From: Isoetes taiwanensis
Lineage: Eukaryota > Streptophyta > Lycopodiopsida > Isoetales > Isoetaceae
Direction of reading: 5' to 3'
Assembly (NCBI GenBank): GCA_021234155.1
Contig: JAJEKV010000052.1
Span: 5,313,606-5,377,605 of the forward strand
Length of the DNA: 64,000 nucleotides
The stretch's first letter is position 1. Every line of letters starts with the position of its first letter. The position numbers and the translations under genes are program-made. Under the pieces are notes generated by a model. The model was not told where the DNA came from and made no database searches. It was given only the letters and a program-made list of their open reading frames with translations. Of this stretch, positions 1 to 45,896 are shown piece by piece.

Positions 1-2143
1 ACCAAATCCGGAACCACTGTATAAACGTCTATTGTCTAAGCAATGTGGCTCAAATCACAGTTTGCCATGATTCTTGATGGGTGGCTCGATACCACTTTAA
101 AAAATAGGCACCAACAAAAGATTTACGCACACCAAGTATCAAAAACAATGACAAAATTACCACAGAACATAGAGCTATGCTTCTCCTTCAAATCAAGTTT
201 TCGATGTATTCAACATCGCAAGCACTTCAAGCTTTATTCTTTCCGGCGGTAATCAAAATAGAACTTAACACCGGGAACACATCAGCGAACTCTGCAATGG
301 ATCCAACCTTCCTAATCTAAATTCGCTTTCAGCTTAATAGCACAACAAATCCGACACCAATTGCACAAGCACAAGCTAATCCGTAAGCAAATTTCAAGAG
401 CAACTCTACCTCGATATCAAGCAAAACAAACGCCAATACCTCCGCACGCATTCAATCCGCCGTTTTCCTCAAATCGTGTCTTCTTCCCGATTCGCATCCA
501 TATGTATCCGGGATCTCTTCCACATTCGGCTGGTCGGCCAGCTCTCTGTTGTCGAAGTCTCATGTGCGTGAACTCCATCCGCTTACTTTTTATCCGATGA
601 TCAACATCGTTACCATGCACACCCCAAGACGCTCACTTCTGGTTTTCTTTATTTTATAGATGTCTTTCACCGACTTTGTGTCCACGTGGTCTCTCAACTT
701 TGCAACACCAATCTATGACATGATAATATATAACAACTATATAGGATGAGGACTGCACAACCCTACACTAAATATGCAGATCCATTTTCGATTGTATGCT
801 TCTTTCACTTGAATTGCCCTTCATAGTTTTATTCTTACCAAATGCTTGAACCCCGTTTCTGCAATCAACATTAACTCTACAAATCTATATCAACCAACAA
901 ATACCTTATTAACTTCAGGGGATTTTGCTGTCACCAACATCTTTCGATTTGTAGTACAACTACTAATTCACATTTAATTATTATAACTATGAACGAAAAC
1001 TAAAGCACCATGTTGAACATGTATTAGATCACCATGTAATATGCAGTAGCAAATTAGAATTAGCAAAATGAAGAGGACATATCTAGCACAATTTCAGAAA
1101 AGAGAGATCTCTTATACTTTCACTCTATGCAATGATGCAAGATTCCTATTCACATGTTTAATATTTGGATTCTAATATTTGAACAAATAAATGTAGATGT
1201 AAAAGAGAGTATATTTATTAAGCACAAAAATTATCCATTTTGCTCAAATTTTCTCTTGCTCTTGCAGTGAATAAGGATGTTTTAGAATTTCTTCATGTAG
1301 CCCAGTCTGATCTTCCACATATTTGAAGTCTGAACCTGCACATACTACGGAAGTTAAATACTTCAAGATGAGGAAAGTGCTAAAGAACTTATCAGTTTCA
1401 TAGTAATCGACCATCCTTTCAAGAGCGAAACTATATGAAGCCCTTGTTGCAGACAGTTAGTGTCATTCTTATAGTACAATGTATGGCAGCACAAACAAGT
1501 GGTACATGCCAAAACCAAGGTCACACAAAGACCAAACATGATGGCCTAGATACACACAGTAAACAACATAGCTAGTCATCAGAGTAAACAACATAGCTAG
1601 TCATCAGAACTGCTATGTCTACTGGCTATGCAATAAATATATTGTTCCAATTATACATTAGAAGATGATTTCCCTCTAGGTTCCTTCATTCAAGGCCAAT
1701 TACCTCTGGAACAAAGCAAGAGAATCCAAACTTTGCTAGCAATGGCAAATGTTGTATAATCGGGATGGCTGCTAGACCAGGCTCCAAACTCCATGTCCCT
1801 GCTTGATCATAAACCAATAATGCGCAGTTCATGGATATTTCCACCACATCCAAGTTGTCCAGACAGAACGTTTATAAGATGTAAAATGACTTGATTATCT
1901 CAGGACAAAGGAAAGAACACCAAAAAGAACGTTGCAATGGCACCATAAACTTTATATGGGAGCCTTTTTAGAATGTCATGTTAATTTGCACTGAAATCCT
2001 CTCTGTAACAAGCAGAAATCATTTTCCCTTCACACAATACAATGATATCAACGCATTTACAGTTTTGGCATACTTTCTTTCCTGTCTTCAGGTCAAAAAG
2101 TGCTCTGCGGAAAGACATGGATATAATAAACCACACCGCTTCT
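1..2143. other. Intergenic, no supported gene
   Basis: AT-rich sequence downstream of the C1D gene, with no gene I can support. A 40-codon minus-strand frame (329-451) is strongly hydrophobic at its C-terminal half but has no recognisable relative. Minus-strand stretches at 1229-1345 and 1744-1860 read open beside plausible splice signals but do not join in phase, so I do not call exons. A 25-bp unit is repeated in tandem twice at about 1559-1608. Confidence 0.5.
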
Positions 2144-3180
2144 TCAATTTGGTTTTTGTGTCATTAGCTCTTTGGTGGCTTCAGCAAGAAATGCAGCAGC
2201 TGCCTGAGCCACACTTGAATTCATTTGCATTTTTGCCATTATAGGCATTTGATTCTTTGTCTTAGTAACATCTGCAGAACTAACTCTTTGCTTTGTTTTA
2301 TCAAGATCCCTCACTTGCTGTTTTTGTTCTGCATCAAACGGCCCACCATTTAAGAAGTTCAGAAAGAAAGATTTTTTTAGCTATAACTTACCTTCAGTGA
2401 GATCAGGAATGGCATGTTCAATAAATCGATTGGCAGCGTGAAGATTTAGTGAAGTAGATGGCCAAGTTGGAGCTGGATTGTAGGATACATTTATTGAACT
2501 GGCTAAGCAAAGCATTTAACCCAAAGCTGAAAAAACTTGAAAATCCAGACGACAACATACCTTTATTTTTTGCCTAAGCGTGCTCTACTTTGTCTTCATA
2601 AAAGTCTACTCTGGCCTACAGAGGAAGAAGACATGAATTTGTGGATTTCGAAATGCATTTTGGCTTGTCATGTCATTTTAACGTCCTTTATTCTTTATAT
2701 AGTGATTTCAGGCATCGTAATACTTCAGTTGTTAAAATTTCCCAAAAATGAAGCAAAGCCACAGTGCCAATAACTGGATAAAAGCACCTAGCTTGAATGG
2801 AGTGACAAGTCTGTACCAATTCTGAGTGTGCGGGATGGTCTTCAGGAGATTCTCCTTGTGTTCTTAAAAATGCTAGTCGCAAAGAAAACAGCACAGGTTA
2901 AGGCATAATGGCATGTTAAAATCAGCATGAAATTCCTAATTTTTATAAATAGGAAGATAAATATCTATATTGTTTATGCAGGCAAGCAAATGGGCTTTCC
3001 AACATATCTCTATGAAAGATTGTCAGGGCAAAGATATTTACCACAGAAGAGGGCGTTTACAGTCTTGGAAAGGTTGAGAAACGTGGAAGCGCGCTCTAGC
3101 GGAGTGAGAGCTTTGATAGAATCAGTGGTACAATTGTCGAGAACTAGGGTCGCCATAGCCAGGACGGTGAAGGCTGCCAT
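2144..3180 (-). CDS. C1D/Lrp1-family nuclear exosome cofactor, one in-frame TAG
   Basis: Five exons on the minus strand: 3042-3180, 2817-2872, 2561-2615, 2392-2502 and 2144-2328. All junctions are GT-AG and in phase, giving 181 codons, normal for plant C1D. C1D (yeast Lrp1/Rrp47) is a small nuclear Sas10/C1D-domain protein that binds RNA and the exosome subunit Rrp6. Family signatures are visible: LTPLERA in exon 1, FLRTQGESPEDHPAHSEL across exons 1-2, RVDFYEDKV in exon 3, and LNLHAANRFIEHAIPDLTEE across exons 4-5. The C-terminus is Ala-rich, then basic. The start is the second ATG at 3178-3180, the only one in this frame; upstream ATGs are out of frame. Codon 79 is TAG (2574-2576), between EHA and AKNK. 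The frame continues perfectly on both sides, so this is either one recent nonsense substitution or a base-call error. Confidence 0.85.
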
Positions 3181-5029
3181 AGCCAGGGCGCTGAGGCCGC
3201 CATAGCTCGGCGCTCAGGCTGCACAAGCGGGAAGGGGAGGATGCGATAGAGGAACAATTTAAGAAAAAAATTATGCATAACTTCCAACGCTACCTAGGCA
3301 CGCTGGAATTTTCATTTTTTTTCTCACCGTAGATCAAATCTAACGACGGAAACAGCAGCCACCTACACAAAAATCCCACCTGGCAGCAAGCAACGTGGAC
3401 ACTCTAGAATTGCTTCAAAGTGTCCACTTGCGTTTGTGCGTGGTATGGGTAAGGACAAGAGCTATCAAGAATGCAAACAAGAGCTATCTCAATATGTAAT
3501 GCTTAATTGGACATTTGGAAATTCAAATAGATGGTATTCAAAGTATATTATTTGCTTGGGATTTGTCAATTTATAGATTATTATGTCAATCTAGAAAGTT
3601 CGCGGAAAGCAAATTCAAACAAATTTAAAAGCATTCAGCATAATACAACACAGAACTTGCAAAGTTTAATAGTGAATTCAAAGAGGCAAATTAAAACAGA
3701 TTTAAAAGATTGAAAGAGATTTGAAAGATCAAGTATCTTTGAACTTAGTATAAATGTTTCAACATAATAGAAGTGTATATAAGTTGCCTGAGAGATATAG
3801 CGCCGGATGAACAAAAATGTGAAAGATACCGGCAATTTGGTTGAAAAGAGCTTAAATCGAAACCATGATCAACGTTCAACCTCCTCAATGAATATGAAAT
3901 AAGAGAATCTGGATTATTTGTAAGTATGGATTTGGAAGAAAAATAAGCAAAAAGAACACGCACTAAATAGCATCATAAGTATCTATACTCTTGGTTTTGT
4001 GATTTACAGGCAAAAGTTTAAGATGAGGCTACTTGGAAACATTAGCCATCTTTTCATTTACCTTGAACAGAGATCGTTGAAGTTGCACCATCTTTCTATA
4101 TTTTGGAGTCTTTGAAAGGCAACGAAAAAGATATATTCGAAATAGGAAGCTAGCATGTAGCCCGCACTTTAGTCTTCACAATTTCGGATAGTATACTACT
4201 GATTACAATTTGAGAATCTAAGAAGTGCATTATTGAGAGAAGTGTGATACAAAATGCTAGAAAGGAAACATAAGAGTATCATACGGAAACACTTTGTGAC
4301 TTGCATGCCGCGATTTGGGAAACCCGAGGCAACGCTAATAATTTGCGAAAATTAGAATATGAATCACCACATGAAATGTAGAATCTTTCTAAAGGATTTT
4401 TGTAATAATAAGTAACCACGCCGAGGTTCTAGCAGTTGACCCACAAACACTTTTTTGTACTAGTGGTCCGGGCTTCCAGTATATGTCCGTTAGGGTCGTT
4501 AAATGATAGGTCACCGCCATCTAACAACGGAGTTTAGTACAAGAACGCAATTTTACTTGAGACAAACTTGCGCTTACACTATTTTGGTGCATGACTTTGC
4601 AGCCCCTCCATAATGCTTCCCCTGATCTTATTATTCTTGAAGTTCGCAATACGTCTGGCTTCGATCCTTGAAACTTGAAATTTCATGCATTTACATCCAA
4701 GCCACACTAATTTACATTAGACTTTGAACCAATCCATCGGCTTCCCCACATGTTCACAATTTGCTAAAGCAAACATGCATGTCTTTGAAGAGCACAAAAT
4801 AAGCTAAGCAAACATGTTTAAAAAAGAGATGCAATATCTAATTGAATTGAATGCGTTGCTCTATCCACTTGTTTAGCATACTTGTTCAAAGGCCCTCGCA
4901 AATCTATAACCTATTGCCATAAGAACCTCACATGGCATAACTTATAGTGAGACATTAACCTGGTCGCAAGCTGGACCAATAATCGTAATCCTAGTGGGCA
5001 TCTAAAGTCTCATGGGCGGTTTATTGCAT
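3181..5029. other. Intergenic, no supported gene
   Basis: Upstream side of the C1D gene. 3181-3250 is GC-rich and would hold its 5' leader. The rest is AT-rich with only short frames and no recognisable coding sequence. The left part of the receptor relic (kinase-side exons) may once have lain at 4000-5000 on the minus strand, but I see no conserved motif there. Confidence 0.4.
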
Positions 5030-14900: not shown

Positions 14901-15045
14901 TCATCGCCTTATTCTTCCCTTTTTGACAGAAGCCACTTAAAAAAGCCTATTTTAAGCTCACTAAAACCTTGGCAGCAAACCGTGGCATGAATGCAACCGA
15001 TTCTACAGACTTATCTTAACACATACTATGGAATCTGGCCCTTAA

Positions 15046-15077
15046 AACCATCATTCAATTAAATTGGGATTATGTCT
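15046..15077 (+). repeat. Left terminal inverted repeat of the 12-kb element
   Basis: 32 bp identical to the reverse complement of 27162-27193 and of 45865-45896. TTAA precedes it at 15042-15045. It is followed at once by a half-site of palindrome family 2 (ATCGCGCC at 15087-15094). Confidence 0.9.
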
Positions 15078-15510
15078 ATTCCAAAATCGCGCCGTATAAG
15101 CTATTTATTGACCATTATATTGAATTAACCACACTTTGCACCGAAGTTCATTTTCGGGCTAGGAAGATGCATTTTATGTTGAAATGCAAGGGCATCCAAA
15201 TATTCGGGTCCAAAATGACCCATATTATGAAAGAATGTTGGCAATATAAAAGTAGGAAATTGCTTATTAATTCGCATAAATCACCGACGACAACGAAAAT
15301 CTAAACATTGAAATTGTAGTGTGTTTTACGAATAAATAATGCCAAAGCAAGTTGCTACGTAACGTAGATTTTCATATCAAATCAGCGCAAAACATTTTAT
15401 TCCCATAAATAACGATTATAGTGGAACATAAACTTTAAAAACTAATCCAATCATCGCCGACAAAGCGCCATAAGCGGTGCCGAGATCCTTTCGATCATGA
15501 ACAAACCATG

Positions 15511-17585
15511 CTATGGATTCCATATAAGATGGATTACAACATCAAAGGGATCGTGATAGAAGCGGACGGGATTCATAGCAACGACATCAAGCCGCCCCGG
15601 TTCTATTTCTAGCTCATGCACTGCAGAGGTCTCGTGGTTCATCCGCGGTAATAGAATGTGCCATAATAACAAGCGTATATGAAGTCGGGCCGATGGTTTG
15701 CCAATTTCATGCATAATGATTTATAGACACCTAAATTATTGACGTATATACATACAAATTATTGCAAGTATAGCAAACCATACACGTAATATAAAAGAAC
15801 AATACGCATACGTAACCAATAATGCTGATATAAGAACACAATATATATTCGAAAGAGTTTGGTGTAAAGTATATTTCATATTCAAAACTTTTTGAAAGTG
15901 TATTTCAGATACATATATATATATATCAAAAAAAGTTCCCTTTCTAGAACGATCTTCTAGGTCCCCTCACAATTTCCGTCCGATTAAGTTAAGGGTATAG
16001 TGTTTGTATCTCTTCGACCTTTTTTCCTCAGAAGCTATTTCGCGGCAAGATGTCGACAAAACGAAGCAGAAGTCATCTTTGTCAAAATCCTCGATGATAG
16101 GATGGTGGATTTAGTGATCGTGGATCGATTGAAGCAACACTTCAAGGCGCATCATCAACTATAATGATGTCTTCCTTCTCCCGAACGCCCAAGTCATCCA
16201 TCATGTCGCCAAGCATTTCACAAATATTTTTTACCTGTAGGATCCTTTTGGGTTATTGAATGACTTACATTTGCTCGATCCCAAACAGATGCCCAATCTC
16301 TATGTAACTCGTGAACTACTCTCAAAACTTCCTCAGATATTTCTATTCTCCATCGACGACCAAATTGCACAACCAAATAAAAAGAAAGCTTGGTCTAACA
16401 TCTCCTTCAGATACGGCCATGATATACCCATTTCAGATATGTCTCAAATGGTTTCGCATGCATACCATGATAAAGGAAATTGTGCTTTTAGGTAACGCTT
16501 TGCGAGCACTCCATTCAAATCGAACACCGTAATTTTGGAGGAAACCGGATTAGGTCCGAATAATAAAGCACACACTTGTGAGACAAGGAAAAGAAAATTG
16601 AAATCGCCTTGGCGCGATTTTCACCCTGTTGAATAATTGAAATCGCTACCGGCGCGATTTTCAATTTCGCTTGAAGAATTGAAATCGCTACCGGGCGCGA
16701 TTTTTTCATTTCGCTTTGAATAACATACCTTTTCGTTCCCCGCTCAACATCCGCAATGATGAGCTTACTCGGCCGTTTTCGGTCCGCCGTGGTGTCACCA
16801 CATCACTTAGTGTTTGAACTATGGTTGATACTTCATTACTTTTTATGCTAACCCGACTCGAAGCTTTCCGAATCCAATCGTATCATCTAGGATTTTGTCT
16901 TCTTCGCTTATGCTACCTACATCCACTTCGCCGGATTTTCCAATGTGATTGGAATGATAGGCACGCCTCGGGCCGCATAGTTAAGCTGTTGCTTGTCGAT
17001 ATTCTTCTTTATGCCCTCTATATGCTTTCTCATTTCTTCCCACTCTGCAGCCAGATCTGCAGGTAAGCTGGACTTAGAGCTGGAAGCTTTATTTTTTGCA
17101 CTACCTAGCGGACCCCTAGGTGCCACCTCTAGCACTTTCTCGAAAAAAATATCGAGGAAGTCCTTGGCTTGACCATCGAGACCACACTTTGGCATTTCCT
17201 AGCTAGCTTCAGAGCTTCCCGCCCGACATAACCTCCAACATGAAACTCCCAACACGTAGACTCTAAAGGGCAGAAGGCTTCAATCAGAAAACTCGAAAGG
17301 GCCAAAGAAAACCCGTACTTATTCAGCCTCCCCTTATGCGCCGTCAGTAGCTCATACTTGATTGGTGAATTAAGGACAGGGTCGACCCCAGCTTTTCTTC
17401 TTCCTCTTCCTCTTCCTCTTCGGGCCCGTGTCCACATCCACATCCGGTAGCCCCTTTCCCTTTGTCTTCGCGAATTGATTCGACATAAAAACATTCTTCA
17501 ATAGGGGTTCATCTAGCCGATAGCAATCGCCAAGCAATCTTCTCACCTTCCGGTTTCCCCTTGAGTCTTTCATATTCTTTATCAT
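15511..17585 (-). pseudogene. HAD superfamily FCP1/NIF-like gene, copy 2, inside the 12-kb element
   Basis: Read on the minus strand. 17370-17585 has a basic segment ending KRKRKRKKKSW (nuclear-localisation-like). 17180-17390 has LLTAHKGRLNKYGFSLALSS and LKLARKCQSVVS. 16917-17160 has DIFFEKVLEVAPRGPLGSAK. HAD motif I reads VFDLNGVLAKRYL (Asp codon near 16519), motif II AIWSSMENRNISEEVLRVV (about 16320-16375), and motif IV IIIVDDA then KCCFN (about 16130-16175). Further left, 15511-15714 is conserved with copy 3 and ends FYHDPFDVVIHLIWNP. As in the other copies the motif is D-x-N-G rather than D-x-D. Frameshifts occur between nearly all blocks, and palindromes of family 2 lie between motif I and the FFEK block, where an intron may once have been. 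It is the leftmost gene block of the element. Confidence 0.7.
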
Positions 17586-20500
17586 CCATAATGGCTATCA
17601 TAAGGACTAGCACATGTGAGATCTTACTTTCGTACTAAACTCACTATCTTTGTTTTCATCTATCATTACCGCTTGCCTCATCACTTTAATGCATTCGACA
17701 TCATTTGCAGCAGCTAGTGCATATGCGTAGGGAAATGCCTGAGTGGCAAACCGTCACGATAGTATAATGCATCTCACCGCCAAACCACCGCATGTGTTGA
17801 AGAAGGTGTCAGAATCATCCCCGTCCATCTCGCGCCACGGCTATCAAGAACAAATAGAGTGATGTCTGGTTGGCCCTTCACCCACCTGCATGGCACACTT
17901 ATAACCGCGGACACCTTATAGAAAAAAGGAGACTCGCCTTCATCGCCGCCTTCTTCACCAAAGCAACTTTTCTTTTTTTAGGTCGACGCAACTTTCGTGG
18001 TGAATCCCCTTAAGAGTTGCCACATTCTTCGCCTTTTGTCGCTTCACAAAATCTTTTGACCAAAATACATATTTCTTAATGTCATCATTAGATACGCTTG
18101 TACTTTTGCATTAAGCCTATCTCTCGATAACATCATGTCTCCCCGAGAGCCTTTGCGCTTCTTCACCAACAAATTTTTTCAGACTTTCATATTTTTTATC
18201 GATTCGCATGCATCTTCGAAAAGATGTCAAGTGCTTTGTCAGCAGACGCTTTCTTGTAGATAACTTCCTTTCTCGATGCAACTATCTAGAACGTAGATTA
18301 ATTCTCAAGATCATCCAATCCTTGTGCCTTTCTCATTTCTCGGATACCTATATCAAAAATAGACGATCTTTATGGAGGAAACCCGCCATACGACCGGGTA
18401 ACTTCTTTTCCTAATAGGGCCCCAAAATTTCGCTCCACTTTTCCCATACCCGGGTCAAGAAAAACAATCTTGCAGGCATCCTTTGGCACCGCTTTGCTCT
18501 TTCCGCGGCCAGCTTGTGCATCCCCTTTTTCTTCTTTGATCTAGTGGCCTTGTTCTTGTCCTCAGATATGGTTTGGCACGTTGTCCTTTCTAGTAATTTG
18601 AATTCGCACTCTTAGATTGCCCTTGTGTCCGGTCGGGCATTGGTTTTCCATATTCGATCCATTGGTTACGAAGCGTCGCAAATCGCCCACATACCGACCG
18701 CAAAATATGGGCCGCTAGATAAAAAAAAAAAACAGTCGCGGAAAGTAACAATATAAAACGCGCCAGCGCTGCTGCAATCACGATTTATTTAACGCCACCG
18801 GGCGCCGATTTCTTCATGATGAAGAATTTCCGCCAGCGCCGCTTCTTGTAAACTGGCCACACAAATAACAATAACGCCAGCGCGCTTTTGCTAATCACGA
18901 TTTAGAAAATCGCAGCCATATGAAGAAATCGCCAGCGCTTCTTTGTAAATACGCGATTAGCTTAAAACGCCGGGCGCGATTTGGAACGCTATGTGTGGAA
19001 CATAAAATACCTTTTGTACAGGAATGTCTTTCCCATGTCATTCAAGAGCGCTACCGATTTCGCTAATTCTGGCCGCTGCTTGGGAGCCACCGAGGAATCG
19101 GCAATTTCGGACCGAATACGCCTATAGAATAACCGATTTCCAGTTTTTTGCTTGACCGATCAAAACCTTCGCTTCTCCACTCAATGCCGGGCCATCTATT
19201 ATCATGAAGTGAATATCGAGGTTGCCGCTAAATCTTCAAGTTTATTCCATATCAACACCTTCTTCGCCTTTCATATCAAAAGGCACCACATCTCACCGCA
19301 AGATTGGCACCTCGCCCCGGTTTTCTATCATGTCGCCGACTATTTCCATTGCGTACGCTTGTCAAATCTTCTCACGACAAACATAGCCTTCGTGGACCTC
19401 AAAAAGCCCGGCGACATGGATAGGATGCGGAAGCTAAGGCCCAAAGTGGATACTTGTCGCGATATTTTGAGTTTGCTCATGGCCTCTAACCGCCTCGCCT
19501 TTGTCATCATCACTAGTCATATCCGTAATGCCTAGAACGCCCGGTGTTTCCCTCGCTCTAGAACTTGCATCTTCCTTCTTTTTAAAGCTTGTAGGTACGC
19601 ACTAGTCGACGGCCTTGTAATCGATTGCTCTTCTCACAAATGAGAGACCTTCACATATTTTTTTTGGTGTCAATAGATCACCACCGACCAGCCAAATTTG
19701 AAGAGGTTATCCATGGCCTCATCCGCTCTTAGGGCGCCTTTTAAAGGAACTAGCACCGCAGAATTTAACTTCTTCAATACTTTTTATTTTTTCTCGACCC
19801 GCTTCAAGTAATACCTAACAAGAAGAATCGCCCCGTTTTTCGCATGTGATCGTAATACCTTGTTTCTTCATTTGATCTGCTTTCCTTAACTCTAGACATG
19901 AAAATCGAGATCCGCTTTTCCGCTTAGTCTTGAAGATCTCCACATACCATTCGTGAGCCCTCCGTAGATCTTCTTCGACATGGAGGCTCTACCGAGCCTT
20001 CATTATTTCGGTCAGATCGCCAATGGTCACAACGCAGCAAATCTAAGAATCGATACATCTTCATCCGTTTGGTTTTTTCTTCAGGCAGATGTCCCCTTGA
20101 CCCTCGCAAGCAGGCTTTGCTTTTCTTTTCACATTTTAGAAGATCCCGAAAGTTACAATCATGTGGTGAGTAATGAAATCGCTACGAGCCGCTTTTCATA
20201 GACGCTTTTACTTTCAAAAACATAAATTGTACACTGTGGAAAGTAGCAGACAACCAAAACCACTATAATTATAAATCGCTACCGAAGCCGCGTTTTAAGA
20301 GGGGACCTACGACACTTCTCTTTATAAGAGACATACTAGGCTACAAAAAGACTTGTCAAAAGAACTGAGAATACGTAAGTAAAGACTTACACCTGCCTAC
20401 ATTATACAAAATGGAGAATTGTTCCAACAAAAAACATATCGGAGTAAAGGAGAAGATTATAACAAAAACACACAAAAACAAGGTAGTAAAAGCAAGAGAA

Positions 20501-22401
20501 ATGACACGTAAAACAATATGAAAGGTAGACAATACACAGAGACACGCATACACGTAAAATACACAAAGTTGAAAACATCCTAGAAACCTAACAATAAAAG
20601 GGACACGTAAATCAATTACAAAACAAAAAACGATCAATTACCCGAGGCGCTTTGTTGATCAAAACTTTCGCTTGTTCAAAGCAGCCTCCGTGCTTGGGAT
20701 TTGTGCTTTAGTGTCGCCCACCTCTACCAATACTGGCCACAAGCCGATCCTCTAGACGCCATAGAACCGCAAGTGCGATAGTATGAGACTGGGTTTTGGT
20801 TTAAACTTATATGTATGCTCATAATCTAGGCCGCCGATTTACAAATCAGAAATTCAAATTCGGCCCTTTTAAATTTATACCGCTTTAATTAACCGCCTGG
20901 TCCCGCCCATTTACAAATTTAAATTGTGTTTTTCTTTTTAGTGCAATTTCAAGATAACAATTAATTATTAATTTCAAGAAACGATATGTGGCAATCTACT
21001 ACCACCTAATCGGCCACCTACTATCGAGAGCCCAAAGATCATTCCTAGTATCGAGCCCAAGAACAATCGACTATCGAGCGCCCAAGATCCGCTCGATCCC
21101 ATTCGATCGATCGAGCCGCCTTCAATCCATTCGATCGAGTCGCCTTCAATTCCCATTCGATGTCCGCTGAACTATGGTGAATTCGAATGCATTCTCTTTG
21201 TTCTCAATTTTTCGCCCCTCTATTTTTACAATGCATTCTCGGTTCTTTATCGCTTTTTGAGAAGAATGCTATCTTTTAACAAAGAAACTTGAAGCCGAAG
21301 TAGGATTGTGTAAAATCAAGATTTGAATCCAAGTTCTATGTGTCATGGTGTTCCTCTTGGAACAAGTTTCTCAGAAGATTTCTATTCTAAACCGCAATTA
21401 TGAAGATGAGGCTCTTCCAAGAAGACATCCCTAAGCGTGCATACAACAGGAAAGCGTGGGCACATTTGTAGCATGGCCAAAAGAACGCCCTCAAAAAAGG
21501 TATGTATATTTGGATATTCAAAAAAAGAATATATCATATCATCTCATGATGTTGTGAACTTTGAATTCTTTGATGGTCTTTAGCTTGTTTTTTATCAACC
21601 CCATGAAACTACACATTAATGAAAATATGTAGTTTCTTGGGGTTGGTCATACCGGGCCGAGGGCATCACAGATTCAATGTTTTCGACATTGCATATAAAA
21701 AAAATAAACTAATGACGTAAAAGTATAGTGCAAATTGCGCCAGCGCGAAGTTTGTATTCATATTCCAAAAAGTTATGTACATTTCTTCTTCTCGCAAAAT
21801 GCGCCAGCGCCAATTCTTTCTATCTCTACAATATGTCGACAGTGCCCACTTCATCCGCCTAATCCCGCAAGAAGTCCCACCAACCACCCTCGATATGACA
21901 GATCCTCATCTTTCCCCGAGGATGTCGAAGTCTCCAAACCGTAGTGTTGTATCGATCCCCGATACTATAAATCAAATCCTTGTACTTATTTGTTGGCATG
22001 AGCCTTACTAAGAGCATGAGGAGTCCGATATGTCCATAGATGCGATGGAAGTGTACCCATGGCCCCCGATACAGCCGCCTAATGGATTCTCCAACTCTCT
22101 TTGAACGCTTTGAACAAAGACACTCAAGTAATATCTTGTACAGTGGTCCAGAGTTGATGGTCGCCCGTGGAACTAGAACCAAACCAAAGTATTTGAACCA
22201 GCCGTCCATGCATAAGGAAAATCCATGGCACTAGAACGAGAGAAAGTAATTAGCACGATCTATTTCACACGCCACCGGGCGCGATTTGTATAGAGCCGTA
22301 TGAAATTGAAATGCCAAATTAAAAACGCCACCGGGCGCGATTTGATTAACCTAGTGGAAAACGTAACCCCAAAATAGAAATGCGCCAAGCGCGATTTCTC
22401 C
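16600..22401. repeat. Dispersed palindrome family 2 (AAATCGC / GCGATTT)
   Basis: Palindromes with arms (G)AAATCGC and GCGATTT(C) around a CCGG- or CTTGG-type core recur at about 16602-16622, 16638-16660, 16679-16703, 18790-18812, 18962-18981, 20175-20195, 20270-20292, 21733-21750, 21796-21812, 22262-22286, 22325-22345 and 22379-22398. Degenerate forms lie at 18750-18780 and 18868-18960. In copy 3 the cleanest form is GAAATCGCGCCGGCGCGATT at 44246-44267, with others at 44312-44334 and 45845-45857. Several share the same variant (GCTACCGG in the left core), showing they were duplicated or homogenised. They are strongly CpG-rich in AT-rich surroundings. Confidence 0.8.
17586..20165 (-). pseudogene. 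Degenerate minus-strand coding block of the 12-kb element
   Basis: Protein-like minus-strand segments separated by frameshifts: about 17650-17800 (AFPYAYALAAANDVECIKVM then EFSTKV), 18590-18781 (ILRSVCGRFATLRNQWIEYG), 19152-19535 (MEIVGDMIENRGEVPIL) and about 19820-20000. They run in the same direction as the HAD gene and probably belong to its 5' part or to a second element gene. No family recognised. Palindromes of family 2 cluster at 18750-18985 within it. Confidence 0.4.
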
Positions 22402-22950
22402 CATTCCAACATATTATTCTAACAAAATGCATAATGCGTAATGCACGCGTAACGCACGCGTAATTCAAAATATAAAGCCGCTTAGAGCAGATATATAATA
22501 ATAATACTCCTTGTTTAGTTCAATATTTAGTTCATTGTTTTAGTTCATTATTTAGAACTGATAGAGGAAGAGCTAGTGAAGATCTATGATCTATGATCTA
22601 TGATCTAGATCATAGAGCAAGATCATAGATCGATATGAAATAGAACGATAGAGTAATATGATATGATAGAGAATGATATGATATGAAATAGAACTGATGC
22701 ATGTAAAAGTAAATAACATGCTTTATGGAAAATAACTACTTTATGTAAATAACAAAATACTAACCCGAAAACCTTAAGAAGTGATTCGAGAAGCCTTAAG
22801 AAGCCGAGAAAAAGCAATAGCAGCTAATTTGGAGAAAAAGCAATAGCAGCCGAGAAGCTTTAACACAAAAAACCAAAGTTATTCAAAGTCGAGATTGTAG
22901 AGAGCCAAAAGCCAAAAACCGAAAACCTTGTATAGAGCCTACAAACCTTG
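20200..22950. other. Central non-coding part of the 12-kb element
   Basis: AT-rich, with palindromes of family 2 but no recognised coding sequence. At 20990-21150 CGATCGA-type phrases (GATCGAGCC, CTATCGAGC) recur. At 22575-22635 a short ATCTATG tandem abuts its own inverse (ATAGATC). Confidence 0.4.
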
Positions 22951-22964
22951 TATAGAACCTTGTA

Positions 22965-23450
22965 TTGAGCCGAAAAGCATATAGAAGCCGAAAAGCATAT
23001 AGAAGCCGAAGTTTAAAGCGTAAAAGCGTAAAAGCCGAAGTTTATAGAAGCCGAAAAGTCGAGAAGCAATTAGAAGAGAAGCAGAGAAGCGCATTTGAAA
23101 ACCTTTGTAGAAACCTTTTTAGCCGAAAAACCTTGAGCCGAAAACCCTAAAGCGTAAGATTGTAGAAGCCTAAAAACCCCGAAAAGCCGCCATAAAAAAA
23201 CGATAAAAACAGATTGTAGAAGCCGAAAGCGCCAGATAAAAAAACGATAAAAAGCGATAGAAGCCGAAGTTTAAAGCGATAGACGCCGAGAAGCCGAGAT
23301 TGAAGCGTAAGCCAAGTTTGAAGCGCATAATAGAAGCCGAGAAGCGATTGAAGCAAATAGAAGCCGAGAAGAAATTAGAAGCGTAAAGGTGAAATTGGAA
23401 GCGCGAATGCCTGGAATTGGAAGCGTAAGCAAAACCGAATTAAAAGTGAG
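22965..23450 (+). repeat. Purine-rich minisatellite, unit near AGAAGCCGAAAAGC
   Basis: About 480 bp in which the plus strand is almost pure A and G apart from CC dinucleotides in phrases such as TAGAAGCCGAGAAGC and GCGATAGAAGCCGAAG. Units vary from about 10 to 20 bp. The strand asymmetry is extreme. It lies between the divergent gene blocks of the 12-kb element. Confidence 0.7.
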
Positions 23451-23575
23451 AGAGAAAAAGTTCGAAAACGAATGCTAACTTGAAATAATAACCGCTTTCA
23501 AAATTTCATCATCACCATTATTATAACTTCCGCGAAAATTTATTGCACCGTTAATTGTTTTAAGGACCGCGAAGT

Positions 23576-23797
23576 TTATCCCTTGTAATAACAATGTTAA
23601 ATTTATTATAAGGGTTATTATAGGATACCAAGGTTATCCCTTGTAATAATAAGGTTAAATTTATTATAAGGGTTATTATAGGATACCAAGGTTATCCCTT
23701 TAATGGTTAAGTTAACCTTTTAAGGTTAACCCTCATAAGGGTTATCCCTTTTACAAGGTTAAAATTTATTACAAAGGTTATTATAGGATACAAGTTA
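23576..23797 (+). repeat. 58-bp tandem repeat, two near-identical units plus a diverged third
   Basis: 23576-23633 and 23634-23691 are 58-bp units differing at only two positions. Each starts TTATCCCTTGTAATAA and ends GGATACCAAGG. A third diverged unit with an internal AAGGTTAACC palindrome runs to about 23797. It lies just upstream of the transposase reading frame. Confidence 0.8.
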
Positions 23798-23984
23798 TAA
23801 GGCTAATAAGTAGAGGGTTTTATTTATATATAATGTTGAGGAAAATAACTTGGGGAATCCCATTATATAAATAGAATGATCAAATAGAATAAGACATATG
23901 AGGCTTTCATTTATGAACATGTTATTGAGAGGTTATTTGATATGCTAACTTACTATATATTTTTATGCATTCTAGGTCAATGGC

Positions 23985-26940
23985 ATGCAAAATGCTAAAA
24001 ATAAAGCCCCTAATGATGCTGATCAAGGCAAGGAAAAATCCCCAACTAATGAACATGATGGCCAAGGAAAGGAAAATACCTCAAATGATGTTCATGATGG
24101 CAAAGGAAAGGAAAAGACTCCAAATGATGTTGATGATGGCAAAGGAAAGGAAAAGGCCTCAAATGAAAAGGATGATGCCAAAGGAAAGGAAATTGTACTT
24201 TATACTCTGGGTCGATTGGAAAAACAAAAGGTCAAGATCCCGCATGCATGCAAATGAGAGGCAAGAGGAGAAGGGATTATTGTTCTAGCAGATCCTATCA
24301 ATGCAAAGAATGATGAAAGATTAGGGAGGACAAAGTTAGGTGTGGCAATCTCAAAATTATATGACAATTGAAGGAAAAGGGTTCAGCAAACAAGAATGCC
24401 TAGCTTGTGTGAAGCAACTAGAGGTTCCAACTATTGTTGCATGGCCTAGGGACAAGATTCAACCGAGGGGAACTACACGCTTCCTATAGATGTAGAACCA
24501 TTGTCAACAATGTTCACACAAGCAGCAAGAGGCCACTTCCAACTTTCAAACATTATCCCACCAAAAGATGCAAGTCGATTATGATTGTTCTCCGGGCTAT
24601 GATGAAGGTTAGAGGAGGTGAATGTTGTTGGGCTTGTGTTAGAATGTTCACAATAGAGGAGTTGGTGGGAGCAAGAGCTACATATCGAACATAAGTGTGA
24701 TAGCAGGAGGAATTTCATGTACACCATATTTGGCTATGCAATTCGTGATGAAAGATCAAAGAAGAAAAGATTCCCATTGAATGGAAAGTGGATATGTTCA
24801 AAAAGCATGGATGGCTATACATGGAATTCCAACCTCTTCTTGGCAATAACCGGCAAAAGAGACATGAAAATGGTAGTAAAATTGCATTGCATGGGAACAC
24901 CGGCCCGGTAAGGCCTACCTCAAGAACTATAGTCGCAAAGGAAATATTTGAAAGATATGTGGATTTCAATGCAAAAACATGCCACATAAGAGTAAGAAGG
25001 ATGAACAGGGTAGAGTTATTGTTGAAAAGAGATTGCCATCCCATTGTACCCGTAAGAGCATATTAGAGGAAATAAATGCATTGCTTCTGAACTTGGAGTG
25101 GCCTCTATATCCCAGCCCAGCTTTTAGTAGGCTATGGAATAAGCATTTCAAGCATGTGACCATAGCAACTTCAAACAACTTTGCCAAGTGCAATTTATGT
25201 GCTAAGCTGAAGGAGACACTAGATAAGACCTGTGGCAACCAAGTCTAAGGGCAAAGATAAGGGAACATATGAAGGACCATATGACATCAACTATCATGTA
25301 GATCAACTTATTGGATGTGGAGGACCTTATCCGCAATGGAACCTAATAACTATCTATGTATTATACATGATAAAATGGACCAACAAAGACTTGTCTTCCA
25401 CAATTCAAGTACATTCCTAAGTCATGTGGAAGATCATACCCTTTGCGATTTCAATGATCGGGGCAATATTGCATGGGCAGTCTCGCACCTATTATGGCCA
25501 TTTCAGCTTTAGAGTTGTGGAGTGATGGTCCAGATTTTCACATTGGGAGTATCATGAGGTGTTTAAGAAACTATGAGAAGGGTTACAATGGTCACCTACA
25601 GATCCTACAACTAGCCGTGCACTACATAGTGCATTGTTGGATGGAACCCCTAATAGTATTGAAAAGTTTAGCAAGGCAAGATTTAGGAGGAATGGACCTA
25701 ATGAACATGTTGGAGCTTCAACATCTCGTGCTAAACCCCGAGATCCTTGCCTTAAAAGCTCCTCTTGCAACTAGATAATTGTGCCGGTCAAAATAAGAAT
25801 AGGTGGATGTTTTCTTTCCTATCCTACTTAACACCGTGGGTATTTTTGAAAGAGTCAATTTGGGGTTCCTAATGCCCTACATACTCATGAGGATGTGGAT
25901 GCATTGTTTGGAAAATATAGTCATGTATTGAGACAGCAGACAGCTACCAACTTTCCCGTGCTATTGGAAATATTTCATGGATGTACAAATCCATCTCCTA
26001 TAGGATCTATCATAGAAGAAGTGCCCGATTGGAAGAGTTTTGTGGATGGTTATGCTCTCGACATGGAAGGTCATTCTAGACCTCTTCAATTCACTTTTTG
26101 GGTGAGAGAAGGGATTCCAATCATGCAATGGAAAATGAGACCTTCAGAGGAGAAGTGGAGAGGTGGGGCGTAATTTGGCTAGGATGCAAATGGCAAGCCT
26201 ATGATACCTCCCCGTCAACCAAAAGCTCTAAAACTAATCAAGAAGTCAAGCAATTGGGCTTGACTAAGGATGGCATCAATGACTACATCAAGCATTGGCA
26301 AACTAATTCAGATGAGACTAATCGTGCATTGATAGATTATTGGAAGAAGGTGATCAACTTGTTGGATGAGGTAGACACATCCTCTAAAAATTTACCGGAA
26401 GGGTGGTTCCCTAAAAGTAAGTGGAAAACATTAGTCGGTGCCGACGAAGATGATGGTACCATTAGTAGCATTGTGAAGGCATATGCTCCTCCTCAACTGA
26501 TAAACACTATGTTGGTCCTAAGAAGGATAGGCCAAAATATCTAGGCATGGATTGTTATGAACCTTCTAATCGACGTGGAGTGCCACCAATTTGTAGTAGT
26601 AAAACCAGCAGGATCTAGAGACCTATCCAAAGGTGGGTTGGGATGGACTATCTCTATATATTTGCAAAGAAGAAGGTGATGTTAACTTCAATAAGGTGCT
26701 TGGAATGGAATGGTGGTGTCCAAGACATCGCTTGAGTAATGTCACCGATAAAGAAAGATATTCGATTGTTGGACAAAGAGGTGGAGGAGAAATCCTAGTG
26801 ATCCCGATCTTTGGCTAGACATTGAAACCGTATTGTACTCATGGACTCCAAAACTATTCCTAGTAAAACAAATGAGAGTTACAATACCTCGGGATGTAAG
26901 GAATAAGGTTCTCATATCCTTGGGGATGTTGGTGGAAAAA
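23985..26940 (+). pseudogene. DUF7869-type transposase of the 12-kb element (frameshifted)
   Basis: The N-terminal part (24020-24200) carries a 13-residue tandem repeat, unit NDVHDGKGKEKTP, encoded by a 39-bp tandem. Then come LYMEFQPLLGN (24810), a basic stretch, LLNLEWPLYPSPAFSRLW (25085-25140) and NNFAKCNLCAKLKETLD (25175-25225). CIIHDKMDQQ (25348-25380) matches the start of the DUF7869 region, and LLLQLDNCAGQNKNRWM (25759-25809) is its hallmark; the next block THEDVDALFGKYSHVLRQQ (25880-25935) matches the usual GHTHEDIDxxFG motif. The C-terminal third (26098-26544) is open for 148 codons. DUF7869 proteins are encoded by DNA transposons in plants and other eukaryotes and are thought to be transposases; the family name is from memory. 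About five frameshifts or stops inactivate it. It reads toward the right inverted repeat. Confidence 0.75.
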
Positions 26941-27161
26941 TGATAAACGATTACTATGTATCAATCACTTTTAATAAAAGTTGTGTACTACTTGAGTTTC
27001 ATGATATATGATTTTGTAATTTGAAGTTAAGGTGTGAATTTATATTCCCGTGTGTGATTATATGTTAACGTCTATTCTAGTCTAAGGGCAACAAAGTTAC
27101 TAAAAAAGTGAATTTAACAAAGTTACTAAAAAAGTGCAATATAAAATTTATCCCAAAATTA

Positions 27162-27193
27162 AGACATAATCCCAATTTAATTGAATGATGGTT
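27162..27193 (-). repeat. Right terminal inverted repeat of the 12-kb element
   Basis: 32 bp forming the perfect inverted partner of 15046-15077, followed by TTAA at 27194-27197. The interior side differs from the left end directly after the repeat. Confidence 0.9.
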
Positions 27194-27197
27194 TTAA

Positions 27198-33924: not shown

Positions 33925-33926
<2 letters not shown>

Positions 33927-34020
<94 letters not shown>
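33927..34020 (+). repeat. (AAT)n microsatellite, about 31 units
   Basis: An uninterrupted AAT/ATT tract of about 94 bp. It directly abuts the 3' end of the minus-strand LINE, so on the LINE strand it is an (ATT)n tail and not an independent repeat. Confidence 0.95.
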
Positions 34021-40329: not shown

Positions 40330-40770
40330 GGAACTCCGTATATCTCAAGCGGGATGTGGTTAATGTGGCCAAAAAATTTTGGGTTAATGTGGCCAGGCCA
40401 CATTAACCACTGGTTAATGTGGCAAAAAAATATCAGCCAGGTGGTTAATGTGGCCAAAAAAGTGGTTAATGTGGCCAAAAAACCAGGCTTCAAACTGCGC
40501 GGCGGGGGGCAAAAATTTCAATTGACTAGTTCTTTCTGCTCTATGGGCAGTTTGATTCGATCTAAAGACCATGCCAATCGCTTCATCTATCTCTTTTATG
40601 CTAGATCAGTGAAGAGAGGAAGAGATTTGAAGCAAAATGGAGCCGGATCGATCAAAAAACACCAAAAAACGCCAAAAACAGTTGGTTTTTGGGCTTCAAA
40701 CCGCGCTGTTCTTCATGGCTGATACAGGTGGCCACATTAACCACATCACGCTTGAGATATACGGCGTTCC
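40330..40770. mobile_element. Mutator-type miniature element I, 441 bp
   Basis: The ends are inverted repeats of about 40 bp: left GGAACTCCGTATATCTCAAG..., right the reverse complement with three mismatches. A perfect 10-bp direct repeat TCTTTTAGAC flanks it (40320-40329 and 40771-40780), the target-duplication size of Mutator elements. Just inside the left end lies an array of TGGTTAATGTGGCCA units (five direct, one inverted) at 40355-40485. The body (40500-40720) matches the body of element II in inverse orientation. Confidence 0.85.
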
Positions 40771-41506
40771 TCTTTTAGACTACCATATTCCCACCCTGGG
40801 ATGCTTAATTCTGTGGGGAATTTCGAAATCAAATAAATGCCATACAAAAGAGTTTGCATCTTGTTCCTGTTTAGCCGTAGTTGGGCACTTTCCATACCAA
40901 GCAGTTTGGGTCTGTGTCTAAGTTAAGGTTCTACAAATTTGCACTAGATCTGAACTAAATCATTTTCAGCACTGATTTTCTATTCGACAAATGCAAATTT
41001 AATTGTACTAAGATACGAGCTATAGGCTGTATGTCCATTCTAGAGCAGCAAAATTATTAGCCGATCACGAGCACCTTGGTTTTGGCTCCAATTATCTCTG
41101 AATTTTGCAGCAGACTTTACCTCTGAATTTTACAGCAGAGTTTGCAGATGGTCTGGTCACGGGTTTGTTGAATTGCACCCTGAATTTTGAATCATCTTCG
41201 TCACCTCAGCTTTGCCCACCGGAAATCGCCGCCAGATATCAAAGGGGAAATAAATTATAATGGCCACGGGGATCTAACAATCTAAACGCTCAACAAATCC
41301 GCAGGTTCACCTTATTTATAACAGGAAATTAAGGATGGATGCCATGATTTAATCGTTTGTCTGTTTCCTTGATGCTTCAACAGGTAAGATTTGTTGAATC
41401 TGCAAACATTCTAAGACAATCGATCATAGTTTAAGCCAGAAGGAGCCTTATCTATGGAAAAAGCCTTATGTATGGCAGAACGCAGTGACCACAGGCCGTA
41501 TATAAC

Positions 41507-41980
41507 GGAAGACCGTATATATCATCCGGGATGTGGTTAATCCGGACACCCGTTATCAGCAATTGTGGTTAATCAGGACCTGCGCAGTTTGAAGCCCAAA
41601 AACCAACTGTTTTTGCCCTTTTTTTGATCGATTCTGCTCTATTTCGCCTTAAATCTCTTCCTCTCTTCATCAATCTAACATAAAAGAGGCATACAAAGCG
41701 ATTGGCATGCTTTTTAAAGCGGATCAAACCGCCCACGGAGCAGCAAGAGCGATCTGATCAAAATTTCTGCCCCCGCCGCACAGTTCTACGCTTGGTTTTT
41801 TGTCCGGATTAACCACTTTTTGTCCGGATTAACCATTTGGCTGATATCGGATGTCCGGATTAACCACCCTGGCTGATATCGGATGTCCGGATTAACCACC
41901 CTGGCTGATACCGGATGTCCGGATTAACCACTCTGTTTTGTCCGGATTAACCACATCCCGGATGATATATACGGAGTTCC
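41507..41980. mobile_element. Mutator-type miniature element II, 474 bp
   Basis: The ends are inverted repeats of about 42 bp: left GGAAGACCGTATATATCATC..., right the reverse complement with two mismatches. A perfect 9-bp direct repeat GTATATAAC flanks it (41498-41506 and 41981-41989). It is the inverse of element I: the body (41580-41790) comes first and the unit array (41800-41960, six TGGTTAATCCGGACA units read on the minus strand) is at the right end. The array unit and the inner part of the end repeat both carry CCGGAC where element I has GTGGCC. Confidence 0.85.
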
Positions 41981-42889
41981 GTATATAACTAGCAGACCCG
42001 TAGCCACATAATGCACGAATCTATTTTCAATCTTATAACAGAGCAAAACGCAATGAACAGAGTTTCTTCAATAACCACATCGGATAGAGCTAATTGACAA
42101 TCTGTTTTCTGTAAATAAATCTATCAGCTTGGACGTGACATGCCTGTAAGTTCACTGGGGTCCTTTATGTGATGATGGAAGCAGGAGAGAGAGACGGGTA
42201 GAGCACAGCAATCATACGGAGCTCCGTGCTTGCTCTAGAGTGCTGGAGAAGGGCGGTGTGCTTGAAAGGGACGGCCAGGCGGAATACGTGGCACCAGGGC
42301 AACGAAGGAGGGCAAATAGATAAAGCTAATTCTGCTAGCTAGTAATCATATCATTATATATATAAACACACTTTGATGTGTGGGACACATCGGTTGCTCC
42401 TTTTCATCTGGGCCGTTGAATTTCAGGGGTTAAATCTCGGCCACATATTTAGATGTGTGCATATGCATGGGCATGCATGGGGGCATGCACCCCATCTGTG
42501 AACCGTTGGATCAAAGGGGAAGGAGAAATCATAGCCTTTGATTTTTGTAGAGAAGGTACAAGGAAGTTTCTTTAAAGGTGATTTGGTGTAGCAAATTTTA
42601 GCCATTAGATCAAAAGGTTAGGATAAATCCTAACCATTAAGTTTTTATATTAAATTACTTTTTTTTCATAAATGAGGTGAGGTGACATCCTCATTAATGA
42701 AAATATAATGAGGTGGCAAAGCACACCTTTCTAGGAAGCTTCCTTTTCTCAATCACATTCAAAGGCCCATAACTTGCACTAGAGAGGTCGGATTAAGGTG
42801 GGGCCCACACCGTTGGATTCCTCTCATTGAGACTTTCTAATGAATGGTGCTTTGATACTGTTTCGTCATAGTTGGAGCCAACTTGATCG

Positions 42890-43677
42890 GATCCTAAGAA
42901 TCTTCTTATCTTAGAATCTTAATAGAATCTATGGTATGTTAAGGGAATCTAGAGGAATCTTCCTAGGATCTTTGAGAATCTAGAGGAATCTCAATAGAAT
43001 CTTAAAGAATCTATAGGAATCACAAGAGAAGCTTTGTGAATCTAGTGGAATCTAATGGAATCTTCGTAAATCTTAACGAAATATATGGTACACTAAGAGA
43101 ATCTAGGGGAATCTTCCTGGGATCTTTGAGAATCTAGAGGAACCTCATTAGAATCTTTAGGAACGTATAGGAATCACAAGAGAATATTTGCGAACCTAGA
43201 GGAATCCAGTGGAATCTTCATAAATCTTTAAGAATCTAGGGAATCTTGATGGAATCTTAGAGAATCTAGGGGAATCTTCGTAGGATTAGAGAATCCAAGA
43301 GAATCTATATAGAATCTTGGGGTATCTATGGGAATCTTGGGAAAATCTAGAGGAATCTATGGGAATCTTCATAAAATTTCTGAGAATCTTGGGAATCTTA
43401 AAGAATCTAAAGGAATCTTCTTAGAATTTTACGAAATCTAAGGTAATTTAAAAGAATCTAGAGGAATCTTCATGGGATCTTGAGGAATCTAGAGGAATCT
43501 CAATATAATCTAGAGGAGTCTCAAAAGGATCGTTGAGAATCTAGGGGAATCTTCATAGGATCTTCGAGAATCTAGGAGAATCAACATAGAATCTTGGGGG
43601 ATCTATGGGATTCTTGAGAGAAACTTTGAGAATCTAGGAGTGTCCTCATAAGATGTAAGGGAAGCTAAGAGAAGGAA
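42890..43677 (+). repeat. GAATCT-type array 2, left part
   Basis: About 790 bp of irregular tandem repeats built from GAATCTAGGGGAATCTTC, GAATCTAGAGGAATCTC and similar, with units of about 14-18 bp grouped in higher-order blocks of about 45-60 bp. It is interrupted by a partial copy of the 12-kb element and resumes at 45897. Confidence 0.85.
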
Positions 43678-45896
43678 GTTAGCAAGGAAATGCCAGAGCG
43701 TCGTCTCCGATGATCGAGCCAGAAATTTTTTGGACCTCTTCTTTGAGAAAGTACTAGAGGAAGCCCCTAGGGGACCAATCGGCAGTGCAAAAAACAAAGC
43801 TTCTAGCTCTAAGCCCGAATTACCTTCAGATTTGCTTAAGGAACGGGAGATTCTGAGACAGGCATTGCTTGGCTCCAACATCATGGATGACATGGACGAA
43901 AGGCAGGATCACCAAATACCTATCGACATGCACATGAACATTCTTGGCCCCAAAATATAGACCAAGATGACAATGCCAAGGATGATGATAATAACAATCT
44001 TGATGATGAAGCGGACTCCAAATCGATAACACTAGCCGTGTTAGCGTAAAGAGTAATGAACTATCAAAGCGTAGTTCACGATTACGTACATCTCAACCGA
44101 TGTGGTTGGTGCTTCTAGCGGACCGAGGCAAGTCGAATAAAGATGCAAGGGATGAAGAGAACACGGGGAATGATGAAGACGAAAGGTATCGTGACAATAT
44201 TCCTTTTCTTGATATCCATGCATTTTTCAAACTAGAAGCTTATAGAAATCGCGCCGGCGCGATTTGGAGTTTCCTAGAGCATACTTTTGAATTATGTTGA
44301 CATGCATCATTGATGAAATCGCGCCTTGGCGCTGCTTTTTGTTTTCATTTCTTTCATCTCATACGTTATTGTTCTCTTACGAAATGATTTGGCTTCCCCA
44401 AAAGTAATCGGGTCTTTGATTTGAATGGTGTGCTTTGTAGAGAACGTTACCTAAAGCAACGTTTGAAAAGTCATGGTATCTTGCAACAACCATTTGAGAC
44501 ACGTGCCAAATATGTTTACCGCGCCCTTATCCTCAAGGAGATGTTGGACCAGCCTTCCTCAAGATGTTTCGTTGTTAATTTGGTCATCTATGGAGCATAG
44601 AAATATCTGAGGATGTTTTGAAAGTAGTGCACGAGCTAAATAGAGACATCCCATCCGGGATCAAAGCAAATGTGCTTCATTCACAAACCCTAAAGAACCA
44701 ACAATTAAAAAGATATTTGTGAAATGCTTTCAAGCAACATGATGGATGCCCTAGGTGTTGAGGATAAGGAAGGCATGATCATTGTGGATGATGACGCTTT
44801 AAAGTGTTGCTTCAATCGGTCCAGGTGCATTGAATCCGCCGCCCTATCATCCTCAAGATTTTGACAAAGATGACTTCTGCCCGCTTTGTTAGTGTCCCCG
44901 CAAGAAATAGCTTCGGGAAAAAACGGTGAAGAGATACACACACTATACCCACACCTTGATCGGACCGGGAAATTGAGGGGAACTTGAGAAAATCGTCCTA
45001 GAAAGGGAACTTTTTGATATATATGTATACTGAAATACACTTTCCAAAAAGTTTTGAATATGAAATATACTTTATCTACGAAAGGTTTTGAATATATATT
45101 GTGTTCTTTTATCAAGGCATTATTGGTTACGTATACGTATTATTTTTTTTATATTATGTGTGCGGTTTGTTATACATGCAATAATTTGTAAGTATATCTT
45201 CAAATAATTTTGGTGTGTATAAATAGGTATGCATGAAATAGCCCCGAATAAACCCTTTCTCCGCCTTCTCCTTGTTATTATGGCACATTCTATTACCGCA
45301 AGATGAACCATGCGGACCTCTGCGGTGCTTGCGAGCTAGAAATAGAACTTGGGGGTGGCTTGATGTCGTTGCTATGAATCACCGTCCGCTTCTATCCCGA
45401 TCCCTTTGATGTTGTAATCCATCTTATATGGAATCCGAGCATGGTTTGTTCATGATCGACGAGGATCTCGGGGACCGCTGCGCGCTGAGGACGATGAATC
45501 GATTAGTTTTTGTAGTTTATGTTCTATTGTAATGCGTTATTTATGCCAAACAAATCCACGCCAGCGATTTGAACCAATAAAATCTCTTTTGTAGCAACTT
45601 GCTTGTTGTTATTTACTCAGAAAGCTTTACAATTTCATTGTTTAGATTTCGTTGTCGTCCGTGAATGTCGCAATTAATAGGCAATTTCACCTTTTTCAAG
45701 CTGCCACATTCTCACATAATATGGTTCATTTGCATCGAATATTTGAATGCCTTTGCATTTTCACATAAAATGCATATTCCCAGCCCGAAAATGAACACAG
45801 TGCAAAAGTGTGGTTAATTCAATATAATGGTCAATAAAATGCTTATACGGCGCGATTTTGGAATAGACATAATCCCAATTTAATTGAATGATGGTT
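43678..45896 (+). mobile_element. Partial copy of the 12-kb element (copy 3), HAD-side end
   Basis: The sequence is collinear with the reverse complement of the left part of the 12-kb element, from the AGTTAGCAAGGAAATGCCAG block (copy 2 near 17200) to the end. It finishes with the same 32-bp terminal repeat (45865-45896). The last kilobase matches 15046-15960 closely. The inner segment between 17.5 and 27 kb, including the transposase, is absent, so this is an internally deleted or truncated copy. No TTAA follows the end; ATAG does. Confidence 0.8.
43679..44900 (+). pseudogene. HAD superfamily FCP1/NIF-like gene, copy 3 (broken)
   Basis: LDLFFEKVLEEAPRGPIGSA (43730-43790) parallels the same block in copy 2. 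After stops and a palindrome pair, motif I reads VFDLNGVLCRERYLKQRL (about 44413-44466), motif II is a remnant (WSSMEHRNI in another frame, about 44585-44611), and motif IV is MIIVDDDALKCCFN (44775-44816). Motif I again has D-x-N-G. The gene runs toward the terminal repeat, as in copy 2. At least four frame breaks. Confidence 0.7.

Follow-up and report, generated by a model that had tools for sequence, protein, structure and literature searches.

In a 64,000-nucleotide stretch of the genome of the quillwort Isoetes taiwanensis (GCA_021234155.1, contig JAJEKV010000052.1, positions 5,313,606 to 5,377,605; hereafter the window), two inverted ends lie 12.1 kb apart around a DUF7869 gene and an FCP1-like gene, related to phosphatases of the C-terminal domain (CTD) of RNA polymerase II. 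This raises the question of whether these parts form one DNA transposon, and what a phosphatase-like gene would do in it. We conclude with high confidence that the locus is a decayed copy of a high-copy family, which likely moves by cut-and-paste through the DUF7869 protein, a predicted transposase, and carries a selected FCP1/NIF-like HAD gene, whose product would be an accessory factor.

The ends at 15042-15077 and 27162-27197 form 36-bp inverted arms that are 100% complementary, in agreement with the original prediction of perfect 32-bp ends flanked by TTAA. Each arm consists of a 4-bp duplication, TTAA (15042..15045 at the left, identical to 27194..27197 at the right), and a 32-bp terminal inverted repeat (TIR), AACCATCATTCAATTAAATTGGGATTATGTCT, delimited by the inverted-arm match to 15046..15077 on the plus strand and 27162..27193 on the minus strand. 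Beyond the TIR, towards the interior, the left end continues with ATTCCAAAATCG and the right end with TAATTTTGG, so that the two ends can be told apart. The region 15042-27197 is a single full-size copy of a TIR DNA transposon, a known kind of element, 12.1 kb long and decayed, with short-period tandem repeats (22436..23729) between its two gene blocks. According to the available part of the genome report, the I. taiwanensis genome was sequenced with Nanopore reads (PMC8566536), which may be the source of part of the frameshifts described below.

We searched the whole genome (1,658,258,908 bases in 1,110 contigs) with a 28-bp core of the end, allowing up to 3 mismatches, and obtained 1,909 forward and 1,936 reverse matches, 3,845 in total. 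The reversed control pattern gave 0 matches, indicating that the end matches are not due to chance. Among 100 end matches listed, 13 plus/minus pairs spanned 12.1-12.9 kb, and ten of these, chosen by end spacing, were fetched as full-size copies of 12,110-12,477 bp. All ten had identical 4-bp flanks (ATGA, GATT, AGTT, CAAA, TATA, CCTC, AACT, CATT, GATT and ATAA), and a further copy of 13,071 bp, C1028, was flanked by TAAT at both sides. Among six plus/minus pairs from the first 30 loci, the flanks matched in five (CTTT, TTAC, ATAA, TTCT and AAAA); the ATAA pair is C30, already counted, while C5, C23, C45 and C48 are new. Identical flanks were thus present in 16 of the 17 distinct end pairs examined, the window included, at a chance expectation of about 0.0046 per pair. 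The 32-bp TIR was perfect in 11 of 12 full-size copies, with one mismatch in C1028. The sixth of the pairs from the first 30 loci, a right end and a left end 13.9 kb apart (C24:578198-592151), has differing flanks, and is either rearranged or made of two different insertions.

The target duplications are 80% A+T. Because TTAA flanks both ends of the window copy, a TTAA-specific element of piggyBac or Kolobok type comes to mind; TTAA is found in just one of the 16 duplications, so membership in either group was rejected as wildly improbable. TTAA is accordingly not the target duplication of the family, as had been supposed, and its occurrence at the window copy is a matter of chance.

Unoccupied sites were recovered as well. 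The copy C139 is inserted in a reverse-transcriptase frame of long interspersed nuclear element type, named by eye (C139:115046-115165 and 127642-127762). Joining its flanks with one CATT gives a frame free of stops over 198 codons, while keeping both CATT breaks the frame. Searched against the genome, the 236-bp joined flank was matched along its whole length at 21 unoccupied places (84-98% identity), of which 12 were exactly 236 bases long at 96-98% identity; at the occupied site the match was split in two. The unoccupied sites and the frame restored with one CATT therefore indicate arrival by insertion with a 4-bp duplication. These results identify a DNA transposon family of high copy number, with inverted ends of 32 bp and target duplications of 4 bp. 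With its thousands of ends and its full-size copies that are closely related to one another, the family forms a considerable mobile part of the quillwort genome, for which the published repeat survey, as far as its available text goes, names long terminal repeat elements as the most abundant (PMC8566536).

Two shorter elements, one per end, could mimic a single long one, and a second copy in the window has a left end alone; likewise, the 13 kb fetched for C1067 include a left block but no right end. Against this stand the matching duplications of 16 of 17 end pairs, the unoccupied sites, and the 12.1-12.5 kb length of the ten fetched copies, although these were chosen by that spacing. The two-element explanation was therefore discarded, and we give it next to no chance: the duplication around the window copy refutes it there, and the paired duplications and empty sites do so for the family. 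The end pairs did not show left and right ends always belonging to separate shorter elements, and one large element with two gene blocks, as originally proposed, is upheld.

The linkage of the two genes bears on the same point. The left and right interiors of the window copy were both matched in all ten fetched copies. We then compared the best 150 of 6,432 candidates from a genome search for the HAD gene, many of which are stop-free 232-aa frames, with the 150 best-scored DUF7869 matches. Between these lists, 26 pairs lay within 30 kb of each other where 0.81 were expected at random; all 26 had the arrangement of the window and none any other, and 17 were 8.4-11.3 kb apart. The remaining matches among those listed have no listed partner, and some copies are truncated.

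The right block holds the DUF7869 gene (23976..26943, plus strand), interrupted in the window copy by several frameshifts and possibly preceded by an upstream exon. The signature motifs QLDNCAG.NKNR and THEDVDALFG are present as predicted, in a core (QLDNCAGQNKNR ... THEDVDALFG) at approximately 25768..26130 on the plus strand. Other copies carry open frames of 703, 784 and 807 aa, and the Pfam profile DUF7869 (PF25273) matched the 703-aa frame at E=7.8e-37 and the 807-aa frame at E=2.3e-36. Against a cut-off of 26 bits, open frames of two other copies scored 125.6 and 127.2 bits and a fragment from the window 52.6 bits. The protein has conserved D...D...E/D motifs, and its gene gave ratios of nonsynonymous to synonymous substitution rates (dN/dS) of 0.22-0.50 in six pairs. 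A structure model of low confidence gave weak matches to RNase-H folds, alongside unrelated folds that matched just as weakly. Of 14 relatives found, two belong to the liverwort Riccia sorocarpa; these R. sorocarpa and metagenomic proteins share the domain and the motifs KMDQ, LDNCxGxNKN and GHTHEDxDAxF at 25-65% identity. The name DUF7869 was not found in the open-licence PMC literature. A domain of unknown function thereby gains a mobile-element setting with defined ends and duplication length, in which its presumed transposase role is testable.

In the left block, the FCP1/NIF-like HAD gene (VFDLNGVL ... WSSMENRN ... IIVDDAP) lies on the minus strand at approximately 15925..16540 and is frameshifted in the window copy. 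The three minus-strand frames of 15042-24001 gave no NIF match, and the HAD pieces joined reached 20.7 bits, below the Pfam cut-off of 21.8. In copy C139, an unbroken 232-aa frame matched NIF (PF03031) over profile positions 1-158 with 63.8 bits (E=2e-17). Further inward on the same strand are two regions without a recognised family, both broken in the window copy: a middle domain (approximately 16920..18700) and a region with a DGQH motif (approximately 18990..20100). The left block of C1028 reads, on the minus strand, as frames of 382 aa (DGQH motif), 373 aa (middle domain) and 232 aa (HAD), and the middle domain is open over 460 aa in C1067. It had no notable match in Pfam, PHROG, PDB or phage searches, and the DGQH region had none in Pfam, leaving HAD as the sole recognised family of the block. 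By eye, in C1028, C1067 and C139, the DGQHS motif recalls ParB/DGQHR proteins and a GTTCWELHVGGYIGRE stretch recalls methyltransferase motif I. An identity as DNA methyltransferase or ParB-like protein gained no support from profiles, with no Pfam match for the C1028 frames even at E 10.

The catalytic motif of the element HAD sets it apart from the enzymes that it resembles. Both aspartates of D-x-D define an active FCP1-type CTD phosphatase, and the element HAD has D-x-N in all 22 open reading frames (ORFs) compared. The predicted CTD-phosphatase-family gene at the left, on the minus strand, is thus confirmed as to its FCP1/NIF HAD domain, while the block also includes long orphan domains and the catalytic motif is altered. 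Since the second aspartate is replaced by asparagine, a weak or non-catalytic protein is more likely, and the HAD would serve as a binder of the CTD or of phosphoproteins rather than as a full phosphatase.

Plant DNA transposons capture pieces of host genes, and long open frames were absent from most of one set of copies read, as would be expected if a single capture of a host-gene piece had been followed by passive, neutral amplification of the HAD gene. We examined dN/dS by the Nei-Gojobori method in the 22 HAD ORFs (20 fetched stop-free frames, C139 and C1067), divided by identity to the query into lineage A (12 ORFs) and lineage B (10 ORFs). The mean dN/dS was 0.324 within A (66 pairs) and 0.433 within B (45 pairs); between the lineages, mean dN was 0.106 and dS 0.624, a ratio of 0.170 (120 pairs). 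Restricting the set to stop-free frames is not in itself expected to depress dN/dS. For the orphan middle domain, dN/dS was 0.22-0.33 in six pairs with dS above 0.2, and 1.04 and 0.66 in the two closest pairs; for the DGQH region it was 0.15 and 0.48. The HAD protein sequence is conserved by purifying selection, and because of the ratio of 0.17 between element lineages at a dS of 0.62, the gene is not a dead passenger. In addition, many open 232-aa frames persist among the best 150 matches and two diverged lineages have kept the gene, making a neutral fragment very improbable. Given this conservation, the HAD protein likely helps the element to spread.

How it would do so is a separate matter. 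The left block might serve transposition itself, through end binding or target choice, instead of acting on transcription or silencing in the host, and its presence in all ten full-size copies fetched, under selection, fits this role. The comparison of copies points the other way. Over the last 3.2 kb, 12 copies are 91.1-96.8% identical. At positions 2001-4200 they divide into two groups, one made up of C67, C106, C112, C30 and the window copy and the other of the remaining copies, with 63.4-71.1% identity between and 82.2-92.7% within them. Closely related right parts (91-97%) are thus joined to two left parts diverged to 63-71% in the middle part, and we infer from these alignments that the left block has been exchanged between element lineages. 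A strictly co-adapted transposition factor would presumably not swap so freely, and we regard the transposition role as possible but rather unlikely. Our preferred reading, put forward only tentatively and with the transposition role as its main rival, is that the HAD protein influences transcription or silencing by the host where the element sits and thereby allows the element genes to be expressed. That a transposon carries a gene of the RNA polymerase II CTD-phosphatase family which purifying selection has preserved suggests a route by which an element could act on host transcription.

To place the HAD among its relatives, we searched the genome for PF03031 and obtained 151 matches from the best 150 of 3,261 candidates. 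Of those listed, 45 matched at about E 1e-25 or better, and about 100 were weaker and dispersed; at least five of the weaker set coincide with listed HAD places of the element, and most do not. Four weaker matches, one from each of four other size classes, gave NIF at E 1e-20 to 2.5e-19 when fetched with flank, and two members sampled per class (L077-L080 and L093-L096) had D-x-N in 8 of 8. In a tree of 26 rows, seven element HADs and the eight members of these classes were set apart from the other rows by a branch supported at 100/99, though long branches and a midpoint root allow false joins. All 15 rows set apart in this way have D-x-N; the other NIF genes sampled, 11 in number and including the weaker L091 and L092, all have D-x-D. 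The NLI-interacting-factor/FCP1-like HAD phosphatases (PF03031) of the same genome share the profile, the nucleophile aspartate and the DD motif with the element HAD, but the 11 sampled outside the four dispersed classes differ in D-x-D and in their position across that branch. In a fifth class of weaker matches (about 470-495 bp; L091 and L092) the motif is D-x-D, and this class groups with the stronger genes. The dispersed D-x-N classes resemble additional mobile families that carry FCP1-like genes.

At L077 (C1059:2684641-2686641) and L081, one 287-aa HAD frame lies tail-to-tail with an opposite-strand gene about 450 bp away, whose fragments (WSDGCSSQFK... WNFFGTAHGKGEHDGQG) appear by eye to be transposase-like, of another type, and which has no Pfam family. 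Downstream of the D-x-N HAD frame of L078, a 197-bp inverted repeat (98%; 1427-2001) is possibly the end of its element. It is conceivable, at somewhat less than even chances, that the D-x-N HAD is a recurrent accessory weapon of several unrelated lycophyte DNA transposon lineages, a captured and catalytically altered member of the Pol II CTD-phosphatase family by which an element secures its own transcription or evades silencing. If true, it would be the plant counterpart of the TET/JBP genes carried by fungal transposons. As described in the available text of that work, several lineages of fungal DNA transposons carry one kind of captured enzyme, which likely counters silencing (PMC12730594); the fungal enzyme is a methylcytosine dioxygenase, whereas the plant element carries a HAD of FCP1/NIF type whose catalytic motif is changed.

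We propose that the DUF7869 protein would combine a helix-turn-helix-like N-terminal part with an RNase-H-like core containing D...D...E/D, bind the 32-bp ends, excise the element and insert it into AT-rich targets through a 4-bp stagger. The left block would encode a protein that contains the orphan domains and ends in a HAD domain of RNA polymerase II CTD-phosphatase origin. As regards classification, the part of the literature consulted describes Sola elements as having a DDD-motif transposase and 4-bp duplications, some exceeding 15 kb, with members in Physcomitrella (PMC10741241), and the 4-bp duplications of our family agree with that definition. In the Sola2-Fanzor1 chimeras of Dictyostelium fasciculatum and Polysphondylium pallidum, the available account gives AT-rich 4-bp duplications, short TIRs and a large transposase, as in our element (PMC3627910). 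These amoebozoan Sola2 elements have interchangeable passenger halves, with an extra gene in one part and the other part constant, which we liken to the left-block exchange; our duplications are 80% A+T and left halves diverge more than right halves. The passenger is a Fanzor1 protein in amoebozoan hosts there, in contrast to the FCP1-like HAD of the quillwort element (PMC3627910). Judged by target duplication, Sola would be the most likely home of the element, and whether it is an ordinary member of that superfamily carrying extra genes stands close to an even question. Neither a DUF7869 gene with defined ends nor an FCP1-like HAD as a selected accessory gene was found in print in the open-licence PMC literature.

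A second, older copy in the window (43675..45896, minus strand) comprises only a left end and left interior. Its end at 45865-45896 is identical to the window TIR over 32 bp, with ATAG rather than TTAA as the outer flank, and its interior is 79% identical to the first copy over 1.5 kb and 77% over a further 160 bp. The earlier statement that this third end joins the same interior therefore applies to the left interior and not to the right one, as the copy is a truncated left half that breaks off at about 43675 within a GAATCT tandem-repeat array. With one end missing, its target duplication is not recognisable. The array, of degenerate GGAATCT type with a 31-bp period, occupies 42915-43660 and 45897-46905 and is interrupted by the truncated copy. 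Elsewhere in the window, a perfect TAA microsatellite of about 32 units lies at 33926-34020, and a tandem array of 32-bp units (41821-41935) falls within an inverted-repeat region (40430-41982) that is possibly a foldback element. Finally, direct repeats at 57433-57754 and 62051-62356, 87% identical and 4.6 kb apart, are possibly the ends of another element.
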